Below, one piece after another: positions 14,235-55,708 of a stretch of DNA of 62,543 bases. The number at the start of each line of letters is the position of its first letter. The first letter of the stretch is position 1. This DNA is from Candidatus Rokuibacteriota bacterium (GTDB lineage Bacteria > Methylomirabilota > Methylomirabilia > Rokubacteriales > CSP1-6). The stretch covers positions 1-62,543 of the forward strand of contig VGLJ01000025.1 of NCBI GenBank assembly GCA_016866775.1. Direction: 5' to 3'. Position numbers and translations under genes: made by a program. Below the pieces are notes generated by a model that saw nothing but the letters and a program-made list of their open reading frames with translations, was not told where the DNA came from and did not search any database.

Positions 14235-15455
14235 ATGCGCGTCTTCGTCGTCGCCCTGGTCGTCCTCGGTCTGGTCGCCCCGGCGCCCGCCCGGGCGGCC
14301 GATCCCGTGAAGATCTGATTCATCGCGCCGCTGAGCGGCATCTTCGCGCCCGCGGGCAAGGACATGCACGAAGGCATCAAGATGGCGCTCGAGCAGGCGG
14401 GCTACCAGGCGGGCGCCGCGAAGCTCGAGCTGATCGCCGAAGACCACGAGGGCCATCCCGCGACGGCCCAGGCGAAGTACAGGAAGCTCGTCACGCAAGA
14501 CAAGATCCACGCGCTCGCCGGCGTGCTGCTGTCCAACATCGGCTACGCGCTCGTGCCGCCGATCGAGCGCGATCGCACGCCGTCGCTCTTCCTGACGACG
14601 CCGGACGACCTCACCAAGCGCAAGCCGAGCAAGTACATCCTCCGCTCCAACGTCGCGGCGAGCCAGCCGATGCACGCGCTCGGCGACTACGCGGCGAAGA
14701 CGCTCAAGTACAAGCGCGTGGTGACGATGGCCATGGACAACCCGTTCGGCCACGAGCAGATCGGCGGCTTTCAGCGCGTGTTCGAGGAGAGCGGCGGCAA
14801 GGTCGTCCAGAAGCTCTGGGTGCCGCTGAACGTGGTGGACTTCGCGCCGTTCTTGACCCAGGTTCCGCGCGACGTCGACGCGCTGGTGCAGGTCTTCGTC
14901 GCCGGCCAGGCGGTGCGCTTCGCGAGGCACTACGGCGACAGCGCGTTGCACGGCCGGGTGCCGCTGATCGGCAGCGGCGTGTTCGCCGATCAATCGGCGC
15001 TCGTCGGGATGGGCGACGAGGTCATCGGCCACGTCGGCGCGCTGATCTGGGCCCCCACGCTCGACAACCCCGCCAACCGCGCGTTCATGCGGCTCGCGGA
15101 AGAGAAGCTCAAGCGCACGCCGTCGTACTTCCACGCGGTGATGTACAGCGCCGGGCGGTGGATCATCGAGGCGGTCAAGGCGCTCGACGGGAAGGTCGAC
15201 GACCGCGACCGGCTGCTCGCGGCGATCAAGAAGGCGAGCGAGGCCACGCCCGACCCGCGCGGCCCGATCAAGCTCGACGAGTTCGGCAACCCGACGGAGA
15301 ACGTCTACATCGTCAAGGTCGAGGAGGTCGGCGGGAAGCTGCAGGACACCATCATCCACACGTATCCGATGGTGTCGCAGTTCTGGACGCACAAGCCCGA
15401 CGACTTCCTCAAGACGCCGGCGTACGACCGCAGCTACCCGCCGGTGAAGCCGTGA
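14235..15455 (+). pseudogene. Branched-chain amino-acid-type ABC binding protein with an in-frame TGA
   Basis: The ATG at 14235, behind AGGAGG, opens a signal peptide (RVFVVALVVLGLVAPAPARA). The mature start reads DPVKI, then TGA at 14316-14318, then FIAPLSGIFAPAGKD in the same frame and a full type I periplasmic-binding domain to the stop. The family normally has Gly at this position (KIGFIAPLSG), so the change looks like GGA to TGA. Restart at the ATG at 14364 would give a protein without a signal peptide. Either the gene is dead, the base is an error, or TGA is suppressed. No LIV permease or ATPase genes are adjacent. Confidence 0.7.
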
Positions 15456-26678: not shown

Positions 26679-27440
26679 ATGATGCAAGCCATGCCGACCA
26701 GGCCCCGCGCCGGGACGCGCGCGCTCGCGGTCATCGCGCTGCTGCTCGCGCTCGGCACCGTCGTCGCGTTCGTCGGGCTGCTGCAGGCCCTGATCCCGCT
26801 GCGGCCCGCGTGGTATCTCGGCACGCTGGCGCTCGCGCTCGTGCTCGGCGCCGCGTCGGTGTGGCGGGCACGGCACTGGCTCACGATCAGCGCGTTCGCC
26901 CTGTCCGTGCTGCTGTTCGGCGCCGCCGTGGTCTTCAACTTCGTCGCGATGCGCGTTCCCGTCACGAAGTCCGTGTTCGTCGTCGGGCAGCCGGCGCCCG
27001 ACTTCACGCTGCCCGACTCGACGGGCAAGGCCGTGCGGCTCGCCGACTATCGCGGACAGAAGCCCGTCGTGCTCGTCTTCTATCGAGGGTACTGGTGACC
27101 CTTCTGCGCGGCGGAGCTCCAAGGGCTTGGAGCGCTCACTCGCGACCTGGAGGCGGCGGGGGCCGAAGTACTGGCCGTCAGTCCCGACTCGAATGAGCGC
27201 AGCCAGGAGCTCGCGCAGCGGTTGCGCGTGAACTACCGGTTCCTCGCCGATCGCGATCTCGCGGTCACCCGGCGCCTCGGCCTCGTCCACGCGGGCGGCG
27301 GGTCCGATGGCAAGGACGTCCCGGTGCCGGCCACCGTCGTGATCGACCGGGCCGGCGTGGTGCGATGGTCGAAGCTGGCCGACAACGTCCAGAGCCGCCC
27401 GGATCCGAAGGACGTGCTCGGCGCGGTGCGCGCGCTGTAA
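26679..27440 (+). CDS. Membrane-anchored peroxiredoxin/thioredoxin-like selenoprotein (Sec at TGA 27096-27098)
   Basis: The 253-residue product has three N-terminal membrane helices (about residues 14-36, 46-62, 67-90) and then an AhpC/TSA domain: [22 protein letters not shown], then [19 protein letters not shown]. Family members have Cys-Pro-x-Cys here, so the TGA at codon 140 replaces the catalytic Cys (U-P-F-C). The same frame continues with a normal peroxiredoxin to the stop at 27440 ([29 protein letters not shown]). A 7-bp hairpin with loop GGGC starts 17 bases after the TGA, as bacterial SECIS elements do. The ATG at 26679 has GGAG 8 bp upstream. It probably reduces peroxides on the periplasmic face. 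Insertion needs SelA/B/C/D encoded elsewhere. Confidence 0.85.
27116..27133 (+). promoter_or_regulatory. Putative bacterial SECIS hairpin of the peroxiredoxin selenoprotein
   Basis: GCTCCAA pairs perfectly with TTGGAGC around the tetraloop GGGC (27123-27126). The loop begins 24 bases after the TGA and has G in its first two positions, matching the published bacterial SECIS rule (loop about 16-37 nt after UGA with an early G). Confidence 0.75.
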
Positions 27441-52375: not shown

Positions 52376-53764
52376 ATGGGCGCAGGACATTCGCAGGGAC
52401 CGTCGGTGATCGAGCGGCTCGCGTCGTACGCGTCCGAGGAATCGTTCGCGAAGCTGTCCGAGGCGACCGTGCGCGCCGCCCGCCGCGCGATCCTCGACAC
52501 GCTCGGCGTGATGCTCGCGGGCACGCGGGAGGACACCGCCGTCCGCGCGCGGACGCTGATCGAGCACCGGACCGGCCACGGCGAGGCGACCGTGGCGGGC
52601 ACGCCGCTGCGCGCGTCGATGGAGGACGCGGCGCTCGTCAACGGTGTCGCCGCGCACGCGCTCGACTACGACGACGTGCAGGCCTCGCTCTCCGGTCACC
52701 CGTCCGTGCCCGTCCTGCCCCCGGCGCTCGCGCTCGCCGAACAGCGCCGCGCGTCGGGCGCGGCGCTGCTGACGGCGTTCGTGGTCGGCGTCGAGATCGA
52801 GGCGAAGCTCGGCCGCGCGGTGAACCCGGCGCATTACGAAATCGGCTGGCACGCGACGTCGACGCTCGGAGTCTTCGGTGCCGCGGCCGCCGCCGGGAAG
52901 CTCCTGGGTCTGTCGTCGGAGCCCATGACGCGCGCGCTGGCGATCGCCGCGTCGATGTCGAGCGGCATCAAGGCGAACTTCGGCACCGACTGCAAGCCGT
53001 GGCACGGCGGGCACGCGGCGCGCTGCGGTCTCGAAGCCGCGCAGCTCGCGGCCGCCGGCTTCACCGGCAATCCCCACGTCCTCGAGCACGGCGACGGCTT
53101 CGGCTCGACGCACGGCGCGGGCATGAAGCCGGACTGGGAGCTTGCGGTCGCGGGCCTCGGCGCGCCTCACGAAGTCGAGAGCCCGGGGATCGGCGTGAAG
53201 CGCTTCCCCGCGTGCGCGAGCACGCACCAGTCACTCGACGCGGTGCTCGATCTCATCGCGGAGCACCGGATCGCCGCCGCCAACGTCGCCGCCGTCGAAT
53301 GCGCGGTGACCTACATGGCGCCGCACCAGCTCATCTACGACCGCGCGGAGACCGGCCTGCAAGGCAAGTTCTCGATGCCGTACTGCGTGTCGGTCGCGCT
53401 GCTCGACCGGACGGTGGGGCTCGCGCAGTTCGCCGACGAGCGCGTGCGCCGGGCCGACGTGCAGGCGCTGATGCCGAAGGTGCGCATGGTCGTCCATCCC
53501 GAGCAGACGACGCGCGAGAGTCTGCCGAACCGGTTCTCCGAGGTCAGGATCACGCTGGCGGACGGCCGCACGCTCGTCCGCCGTGTCGACCAGGCCAAGG
53601 GCCAGCCGCGCAACCCGTTGACCGACGCCGAGCTGGACGTGAAGTTCCGCGACGCGGCCGGGCGCGTGCTGCCGGCGGATCGCGTGGAGGCGCTGCTCGG
53701 CGCCGCGCGCAAGCTCGAGACCGTGCCGGACGTCGCGGAGGTCGCCCGGCTGCTCGGCGTCTAG
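52376..53764 (+). CDS. MmgE/PrpD family protein
   Basis: This 462-residue protein of the 2-methylcitrate dehydratase family has an all-helical first domain (LSEATVRAARRAILDTLGVMLAG; ALVNGVAAHALDYDDVQASLSGHPS, about residues 85-109), then IKANFGTDCKPWHGGHAARCGLEAAQLA and KRFPACASTHQSLDA. Besides methylcitrate dehydratases the family includes cis-aconitate decarboxylases and iminodisuccinate epimerases, so the substrate is open. An AAGGAG site lies 7 bp before the ATG and the gene follows the acetyltransferase by 16 bp. Confidence 0.88.
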   Translation: MGAGHSQGPSVIERLASYASEESFAKLSEATVRAARRAILDTLGVMLAGTREDTAVRARTLIEHRTGHGEATVAGTPLRASMEDAALVNGVAAHALDYDDVQASLSGHPSVPVLPPALALAEQRRASGAALLTAFVVGVEIEAKLGRAVNPAHYEIGWHATSTLGVFGAAAAAGKLLGLSSEPMTRALAIAASMSSGIKANFGTDCKPWHGGHAARCGLEAAQLAAAGFTGNPHVLEHGDGFGSTHGAGMKPDWELAVAGLGAPHEVESPGIGVKRFPACASTHQSLDAVLDLIAEHRIAAANVAAVECAVTYMAPHQLIYDRAETGLQGKFSMPYCVSVALLDRTVGLAQFADERVRRADVQALMPKVRMVVHPEQTTRESLPNRFSEVRITLADGRTLVRRVDQAKGQPRNPLTDAELDVKFRDAAGRVLPADRVEALLGAARKLETVPDVAEVARLLGV

Positions 53765-53827
53765 ACACACTGCCGTGACAACCATGGCGTCGCCGCGGGC
53801 GTAGTCTCCCGGAAGGAGGACACCACC

Positions 53828-54373
53828 ATGCAACGGATCTCCGAAGTCGAGCGGCCGGGTCTCGCGGTGCGGGCCTTTTACAAGATCGGCGAGCGCCTGT
53901 TCGGCAAGGTGCCGACCACCGAGCGCGTCATCGCGCACCGGGTGCCGCTCATGCTGGGCATCGGCGGCCTGTGGGGCTCGATCGAGTGGTTCGGCACCGT
54001 CGAGAGGACGCTGCGCGAGCTCCTCCAGGTGCACGTCGCCGAGCTTCGCGGCAGCGCGTACTGAACGGACGTCCGTCACGCCGTCGGCGTGAAGGCCGGC
54101 ATCCCCGCCACGAAGCTCGCCGCGCTGGACGCGTTCGAGACCGACCCGCAGTTCTCGGAGCGCGAGCGCGCCGCGCTCGCGTTCGCGACCGCGATCGTCC
54201 GCGAGGACCTCGAGGTCGGCGACGCGTGCTGGGCGCGCGTCCGCGAGCACTTCTCCGAGCCCCAGACCGTGGAGCTCGTGTTCTCGATCGGCTTCCAGAC
54301 CTTCGCCACCCAGCTCGCGAAGGCATTCCAGCTCGCCCCGCAAGGCTTCTCGCAACCGCTGCCGACCGCATGA
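53828..54373 (+). CDS. AhpD-like (carboxymuconolactone decarboxylase fold) selenoprotein, Sec at TGA 54062-54064
   Basis: ATG at 53828 follows a GGAGG site. The first 78 codons end LLQVHVAELRGSAY, then TGA, then in the same frame TDVRHAVGVKAGIPATKLAA and on to the stop at 54371-54373. AhpD-like proteins have a Cys-x-x-Cys (or Ser-x-x-Cys) at this place followed by a conserved His; here the TGA at codon 79 stands for the resolving/attacking Cys (S-A-Y-U, then His four residues on). A perfect 7-bp hairpin with loop GTC follows. Read through, the protein has 181 residues, a normal length. It probably acts as a thiol/selenol peroxidase or redox partner. Its stop overlaps the SRPBCC start. Confidence 0.82.
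54076..54092 (+). promoter_or_regulatory. Putative bacterial SECIS hairpin of the AhpD-like selenoprotein
   Basis: TCACGCC pairs perfectly with GGCGTGA around the loop GTC (54083-54085). The loop begins 18 bases after the TGA and G is its first base, within the published spacing for bacterial SECIS elements. Confidence 0.72.
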
Positions 54374-55017
54374 GCTGGCGCGCGGCGCTCGCCGTCGCGG
54401 TGCTCTCGGCCGCGCTGGCGGGCGCCGTCCCCGCGGTGAGCGACGACGATGCGCGTCGCATCGACCGCGGCGAGACCGTCCTCCACCAGCGTCCCGTCGA
54501 GGGATTCCCGTGGCCCGAAGTCGTGACCTACCGTCGCAGCACCGCGTCGCCGACCGCCGTCATGGCGGTCTGGGCCGACATCGACGCGCAAGCGTCGTGG
54601 GTGCCGGAGCTCGTCGCGAGCCGCGTGGTCGCCCGCGAGACGGCGAATGTCTTTCGCGTGCTCTACGAGTACGAGGTGGCGGGGCCGAACGAGCGGTACA
54701 CCTCGGTGATCACGATTACGCGCGATGGCGACGGGTGGCACGCCCGGTGGACGCTCGTCACCGCGCGCTACATGCGTCGTCTCGAGGGCGCGCTGCGCGT
54801 GCTGCCGCGTGGAGACGGCAGCGTGGTGAGCTTCCGCAGCCTCGTCGATCCGGGGATGCTCGGCGCGACGTTCGGCACGCCCGAATCGGTCGGAAGGAGC
54901 CTCGCGGCGACGACGGAGGCCCTGACCGCGCGGGCCGAGCGCCTTGTCACGAGCGAACCGCGTCGTGTCACCGAGCTGGTCGAGCAGCTGAACGGACTCG
55001 CCCGCGCCGATCGCTAG
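54370..55017 (+). CDS. Exported SRPBCC/START-fold protein
   Basis: The 215-residue protein has a signal peptide (WRAALAVAVLSAALAGAVPA). The mature part has the polyketide-cyclase/START pattern: VTYRRSTASPTAVMAVWADIDAQASWVPELVASRVV near residues 52-87, and YTSVITITRDGDGWHARWTLV. Such proteins bind hydrophobic ligands. It starts within the stop of the AhpD-like selenoprotein gene (ATGA), so it is translationally coupled to selenocysteine read-through completing that frame. Confidence 0.75.
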   Translation: MSWRAALAVAVLSAALAGAVPAVSDDDARRIDRGETVLHQRPVEGFPWPEVVTYRRSTASPTAVMAVWADIDAQASWVPELVASRVVARETANVFRVLYEYEVAGPNERYTSVITITRDGDGWHARWTLVTARYMRRLEGALRVLPRGDGSVVSFRSLVDPGMLGATFGTPESVGRSLAATTEALTARAERLVTSEPRRVTELVEQLNGLARADR

Positions 55018-55054: not shown

Positions 55055-55708
55055 ATGGATATCGCGATCCCGCTATTCGACGGCATCACCGCGCTCGACG
55101 CGATCGGCCCCTACGAGGTGCTGTCGCGGCTGCCCGGGGCGCGCGTGCGCTTCGTGGCGACGACGCCGGGTCCCGTGCGCACCGACAACAAGCAGCTCGC
55201 GCTCGTCGCCGACGAGCCGCTGTCGGCGGTGCCCCGGCCGGAGATCCTCATGGTGCCCGGCGGCTTCGGTACGCGCAGGCTGATGACACCGAATCCGCTG
55301 CTCGACTGGATCCGCACGGCGCACGAGACCACGCAGTGGACGACGTCGGTGTGCACGGGTTCGCTCCTGCTCGGGGCCGCCGGGATCTTGAAAGGCCTCG
55401 AAGCGACGACGCACTGGGCGTCGCTCGACACGTTGAGCGAGCTCGGCGCGCGGCCGACGCTTCAGCGCGTGGTCGTGCAGGGGAAGGTCGTCACCGCGGC
55501 GGGGGTGTCGAGCGGGATCGACATGGCGCTCACGCTCGCCGCGCGCATCGCCGGCGACGACTTCGCGCAGGCGATCCAGCTCGGCATCGAGTACGACCCG
55601 CAACCGCCGTTCAACGCCGGGTCGCCGACGAAGGCGCCGGCGCACGTCGTCGACGGGCTGCGCGCGCGGATGAAGGCGCGGATGGAGAAGGAGCTGACCG
55701 GGCGGTAG
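55055..55708 (+). CDS. DJ-1/PfpI family protein (isonitrile-hydratase-like)
   Basis: The 217-residue protein has the glutamine-amidotransferase-like fold: IAIPLFDGITALDAIGPYEVL at the start, ILMVPGGFGTRRLM near residue 65 and the nucleophile Cys in TTSVCTGSLLLGAAGIL (about residue 101). The acidic residue in ALDAIGPYEVL and GVSSGIDMALTLAARIAG match isonitrile-hydratase-like members. Gene follows the SRPBCC gene by 37 bp with GGGAGGG before the ATG, so it likely shares the redox operon. Confidence 0.85.
   Translation: MDIAIPLFDGITALDAIGPYEVLSRLPGARVRFVATTPGPVRTDNKQLALVADEPLSAVPRPEILMVPGGFGTRRLMTPNPLLDWIRTAHETTQWTTSVCTGSLLLGAAGILKGLEATTHWASLDTLSELGARPTLQRVVVQGKVVTAAGVSSGIDMALTLAARIAGDDFAQAIQLGIEYDPQPPFNAGSPTKAPAHVVDGLRARMKARMEKELTGR

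Follow-up and report, generated by a model that had tools for sequence, protein, structure and literature searches.

The question raised by this locus is whether a TGA codon lying inside an open reading frame is read as selenocysteine (Sec) and, if so, what kind of protein results. The window, that is, the whole stretch of 62,543 nucleotides analysed here, comes from a soil and groundwater bacterium (Rokubacteria), whose genome of 5.13 Mb in 159 contigs is 97.5% complete. The named carriers of the gene's orthologues place it in the Rokubacteria / NC10 lineage. The gene lies at positions 53828-54373 of the forward strand. A strong GGAGG ribosome-binding site (53815-53819, +) is located 8 nt before the ATG at 53828, and purine-rich sites like it are found upstream of the orthologues too. 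The coding region (53828-54370) contains an in-frame TGA at 54062-54064 (+), corresponding to residue 79 of a 181-residue product, and is terminated by a second TGA at 54371-54373. As originally predicted, 102 sense codons separate the internal TGA from this stop.

If this one gene from a metagenome-assembled genome (MAG) stood alone, one might read the TGA as a genuine stop or blame it on a sequencing error, and regard what follows as a remnant or as a separate gene. In 95 genomes of the phylum, however, we found 18 further full-length close orthologues with identities of 57-72%, together with two that were cut by contig ends. The TGA occupies the same column in all 19 full-length sequences. 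None of them truncates at this codon, an outcome that the original prediction had named as grounds for abandoning the assignment, and Cys-containing orthologues, for which it had suggested a search, were not found within the clade in these 95 genomes (Cys in 0 of 19). The same column is Cys in nine distant CxxC homologues of the alignment, in agreement with the earlier view that the TGA stands at the redox-Cys position of an AhpD fold. Substitution downstream of the TGA is coding-like, with the third codon positions being most variable. The 19 orthologues and this type of substitution exclude a pseudogene or a sequencing error.

The machinery for Sec insertion is also present in the host genome. 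The selA (592 bits), selB (381 bits) and tRNA-Sec (70 bits) genes are clustered on contig C43, and selD was detected with 336 bits. The absence of such machinery would have spoken against the assignment; its presence bears out the active Sec system that had been expected in this organism. Global reassignment of TGA was considered and rejected, since the gene itself uses a TGA, at 54371, as its stop, and a SECIS element follows the internal TGA alone. On the evidence of sequence comparison, the open reading frame at 53828-54373 is a real selenoprotein gene, with Sec79 encoded by the TGA at 54062-54064.

The SECIS element is a bacterial-type hairpin at 54076-54092 (+), TCACGCC-GUC-GGCGUGA, in which 7 bp close a GUC loop. 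The TGA is followed by the stem after 11 nt and by the loop after 18 nt, exactly as first described. These features fit the published bSECIS rules (PMC13188914), and the minimum free energy of the TGA-plus-45-nt stretch is about -18 kcal/mol. In the window, the G+C content of which is 70%, the score of this hairpin is reached at about 8% of positions. Such hairpins are therefore not rare, which leaves room for the interpretation without Sec, and one hairpin alone is weak evidence. The single-sequence fold energy at the hairpin is not unusual (z from -1.0 to +0.3) and was dropped as uninformative, and an Rfam scan gave no real match.

The comparison among orthologues is more informative. The loop starts 18 nt after the TGA in 19/19 sequences, 92.5% of the SECIS cells in their alignment are paired, and the covariation score exceeded those of all 500 shuffles and of all slid controls. 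The stem pair at alignment columns 17/29 is A-U in 10 sequences, G-C in seven and G-U in two, and is broken in none. The change from A-U to G-C turns CAC..GTG into CGC..GCG, so that H84R occurs together with V88A. Since the paired stem is kept through this change, the two substitutions are coupled and the RNA stem drives the change in the protein, which illustrates cleanly how the structure of an RNA can constrain the protein that it encodes. The stem changes cluster on the tree and thus represent few independent events. The original prediction had placed a conserved His four residues after the Sec; the residue is in fact H84, five residues on, and it is Arg in 9 of the 19 orthologues. Codons 81-88 have a synonymous diversity of only 0.15, against values of 0.42 on their upstream and 0.32 on their downstream side (Mann-Whitney p 0.0096). 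Moreover, when the family was scanned for stems of 6 bp or longer whose loop contains a G, at a loop distance of 17-21, one was found at 94% of 67 TGAs, including those of paralogues with stems unrelated in sequence, versus 4.3% of 10,277 other codons in the same genes. With the TGA in 19 MAGs, conserved coding after it, a covarying SECIS element and full Sec machinery, it is extremely improbable that the TGA is a stop or an error; judged by these comparisons, that explanation is refuted for practical purposes.

The gene is not the only candidate of its kind. A second pair of TGA and hairpin, which had also been predicted, exists in the window in a peroxiredoxin-like gene, where the TGA at 27096-27098 (+) is embedded in YRGYWU-PFC and followed by a 7-bp hairpin with the loop GGGC. 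The sequence is consistent with a real selenoprotein gene. Another in-frame TGA at 14316-14318 (+), near the N-terminus (PVKI-TGA-FIAPLSG), is followed by 378 open codons without a hairpin; this gene looks like one for an ABC substrate-binding protein, and its TGA is probably a point mutation or an assembly error. Elsewhere in the genome, selD (L019, contig C31:24695-25639) has one in-frame TGA, so that SelD is probably itself a selenoprotein. Six genes of the AhpD fold in the host genome carry an in-frame TGA, namely the present one, with the motif SAYU, and five others: CPFU (C6:124382-124912), CRYU (C11:15446-15835), CDYU (C6:34658-35047), CHRU (C67:1093-1491) and CVHU (C4:95360-95710). One more AhpD-fold gene has no TGA. 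Sec-containing AhpD-fold proteins are thus unusually expanded in this genome. According to PMC13188914, Deng et al. 2026 predicted 63 selenoproteins in one MAG of the Methylomirabilota. The number of AhpD-fold Sec genes found here, six in a single genome, fits that report as cited and marks Rokubacteria as heavy selenium users.

What protein, then, does the gene encode? The product matches the carboxymuconolactone decarboxylase (CMD) family PF02627 with 27.0 bits (E 4.5e-6), above the gathering score of 23. An AlphaFold2 model built from a 55-row alignment is all-helical (pLDDT 92.6, pTM 0.87) and shows the AhpD/CMD fold; an earlier model from a 19-row alignment was poor around Sec79 (pLDDT 74). 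The best PDB match of the model is the Bmp8 debrominase 6ohj (TM 0.88, rmsd 2.1 Å over 177 columns), and the matches also include many AhpD-like or peroxidase-related proteins. The residues that characterise the AhpD catalytic family are not found, however. Position -3 relative to the Sec, where AhpD-like proteins and CxxU relatives have Cys, is Ser76 (codon 54053-54055, +), and the positions of the proton-relay Glu and of the His differ as well: position 83 (+4) is Arg or Gln, and position 64 is Glu here and Ala in the orthologues. We therefore concluded that the protein has the AhpD/CMD fold and is catalytically not an ordinary AhpD. The score against the peroxidase-related family TIGR01926 is 29.0 bits, the cut-off being 81.8.

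The SAYU-type proteins form one branch with support of 100/100, and of 100 again when outgroups were included. Position -3 in this clade is Ser, Ala, Thr or Val, and Cys in 0/21 Sec proteins, while all 21 have a Cys at position 134, a count that becomes 23/23 with two further partial members. The relatives show the opposite arrangement: Cys is found at -3 in 60/60 CxxU and 9/9 CxxC proteins, and Cys134 in 0/60 and 0/9. In the window protein Cys134 (codon 54227-54229, +) is the sole Cys besides Sec79, and 17 of the 19 members have no Cys other than Cys134. This combination of a lost -3 Cys and an invariant Cys134, the main peculiarity of the protein, had escaped the original prediction. Because the swap is seen in one clade only and happened once, the coupling between the loss of one Cys and the gain of the other amounts to a single evolutionary event. 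Positions 83, 155, 157, 158, 160 and 164 also differ between the clade and its closest CxxU relatives, which suggests, at the level of sequence, a remodelled active site.

The distribution of the clade should be read with the nature of the search in mind. The carriers that could be named are all MAGs and were found by scanning contigs with two short peptide patterns, an approach that may have overlooked less closely related members elsewhere. An orthologue on a contig of AC_69, labelled 'Actinobacteria' (L057/G095), is near-identical to the Rokubacteria gene L031 and has neighbours in common with it; given this near-identity, the contig is probably mis-binned. The orthologue in NC_groundwater_360 ('Deltaproteobacteria'), a genome with its own selA, may reflect transfer or mislabelling. 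No relative was found in viral contigs.

These facts can be combined into a putative mechanism. The hairpin at 54076-54092 would recruit SelB together with Sec-tRNA-Sec, and SelB would insert Sec at the UGA at 54062. In the model, residue 79 lies near the start of a helix (77-89), at the place that the second CxxC cysteine takes in AhpD, and from there Sec79 would most likely attack a peroxide or another electrophile. Cys134 lies near the start of another helix (132-141). Since the neighbouring Cys of CxxU has been lost, the invariant Cys134, of the same chain or of another subunit, would most likely resolve the oxidised selenium, and the enzyme would then be recycled by a thiol reductase. We infer redox catalysis, the Sec79-Cys134 bond, the substrate and the reductant, and regard a redox enzyme in which Sec79 attacks and the relocated Cys134 resolves as somewhat more probable than its negation. 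As the Glu and His of AhpD are also missing, peroxidase activity may be lost.

It is worth noting that Cys134 could be structural instead of resolving. In that case Sec79 would be resolved by an external thiol, either a low-molecular-weight thiol or a thioredoxin-like protein, and Cys134 would be structural, buried or fortuitous. One-Cys designs typically lack the -3 Cys, as the present protein does. In addition, Cys134 stands at a position that is mostly hydrophobic (Leu/Phe) in the relatives, and it may therefore be buried. A distant Cys homologue (L100, SAIC) that has neither the -3 Cys nor Cys134 would likewise count against a relocated resolver. The retention of Cys134 in every member, while nearly every other Cys is absent, is difficult to reconcile with a fortuitous residue, and we consider resolution by an external thiol rather unlikely, though worth taking seriously.

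The neighbouring genes bear on the function as well. On one strand, an MmgE/PrpD family gene (52376-53764, +; PF03972, PF19305), the selenoprotein gene, a gene for an SRPBCC/polyketide-cyclase-like protein with a probable N-terminal signal sequence (54370-55017, +; PF10604, E 3.2e-7) and a DJ-1/PfpI family gene (55055-55708, +; PF01965, E 2.2e-25), the last of the presumed operon, follow one another with gaps of 63, -4 and 37 nt. The operon with SRPBCC and PfpI genes that had been predicted holds insofar as both adjoin the gene here; as a conserved arrangement it does not, because SRPBCC is common to four relatives only, and PfpI was ruled out as a conserved partner, being next to no orthologue. 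SRPBCC lies downstream in G065 and G001 and, with its frame interrupted, in G066. Most clade members have no such gene beside the selenoprotein gene; in soil relatives an aldo-keto reductase and an amidohydrolase are found nearby instead. In G083, positions 2016-2231 of L029 hold a C-terminal SRPBCC remnant whose start overlaps the selenoprotein stop (ATGA), as if by internal deletion.

A different chemistry has to be considered at this point. By analogy with the fold of Bmp8 and with Sec-dependent deiodinases, the protein might be no peroxidase at all; Sec79 would then act as the nucleophile of a reductive dehalogenase, or of another enzyme, on an aromatic or lipid ligand bound or carried by the SRPBCC protein. 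Bmp8 is the top structural match, the SRPBCC gene with its overlapping start is present in part of the clade, and the C-terminal helix differs from that of the relatives by E157Q, N158T and N164A, all of which would agree with such a role. Fold likeness at about 20% identity, however, says little on substrate, most members lack SRPBCC, and Bmp8 works by the cysteines of its CxxC motif. We therefore regard a dehalogenase-like function as improbable and keep to the redox enzyme with Sec79 and Cys134.

The overlap itself agrees with the original prediction: the SRPBCC gene starts at ATG 54370, within the ATGA that contains the selenoprotein stop. Besides G083, the overlap is kept in G001 (ATGCGTAA), and a separate ribosome-binding site for SRPBCC is not clearly visible before 54370. 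From this arrangement it is plausible that, where the gene is present, SRPBCC translation is coupled to read-through of the UGA; such coupling would make SRPBCC output selenium-dependent. Taken as a whole, the proposal would be that a Rokubacteria-centred clade moved the partner of Sec by 55 residues to another helix, that Sec79 and Cys134, as the sole chalcogen redox pair, form a long-range selenenylsulfide, and that some members of the clade couple the translation of SRPBCC to the reading of UGA as Sec. We put this forward tentatively, at a little less than even confidence. The Cys-relocated clade suggests that the partner of Sec can move within one fold, and a clade without the CxxU cysteine could escape CxxU-based searches.

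Among known systems, Bmp8 (6ohi, 6ohj) is the closest solved fold, although its identity to the window protein is only about 20% and it employs cysteine chemistry in place of a Sec and a distal Cys. In Mycobacterium tuberculosis AhpD the catalytic roles belong to Cys130, Cys133, Glu118 and His137. The window protein shares the broad fold, and Sec79 corresponds to the second cysteine of that enzyme, whereas the first Cys, the Glu and the His (+4) are not kept and the two structures match only marginally (TM 0.50-0.54, E above 1). The nearest curated family, and the best NCBIfam match, is NF053654, 'YciW-related (seleno)protein' (GroundWater_YciW). It is matched by all 19 members, yet the alignment with the window protein, which spans residues 14-173, scores 82.6 bits, far under the cut-off of 310. 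A partial paralogue with the motif CEFU (L053) reaches 281 bits, which indicates that NF053654 describes a different, CxxU branch.

AhpD-like selenoproteins have been found in the Sargasso Sea (PMC1088965) and GOS (PMC2398784) metagenomes, so that the earlier statement on metagenomic reports is well founded. A 2026 catalogue (PMC13188914) lists AhpD/CMD selenoproteins of the TIGR01926-, PF02627-, NF041238- and NF041047-types, all of them CxxU. They resemble the present protein in the fold superfamily, in having Sec as the second residue of the motif pair and in the SECIS directly downstream; they differ in that the SAYU clade has S/A/T/V-x-Y-U and an invariant Cys134. The non-CxxU motif of the clade is absent from the AhpD/CMD entries of that catalogue, and Deng et al. 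2026 or Haft and Tolstoy 2025 may already include the clade. AhpD-fold selenoproteins as such are therefore already known, and it is the Cys-relocated variant that is new relative to the catalogue.
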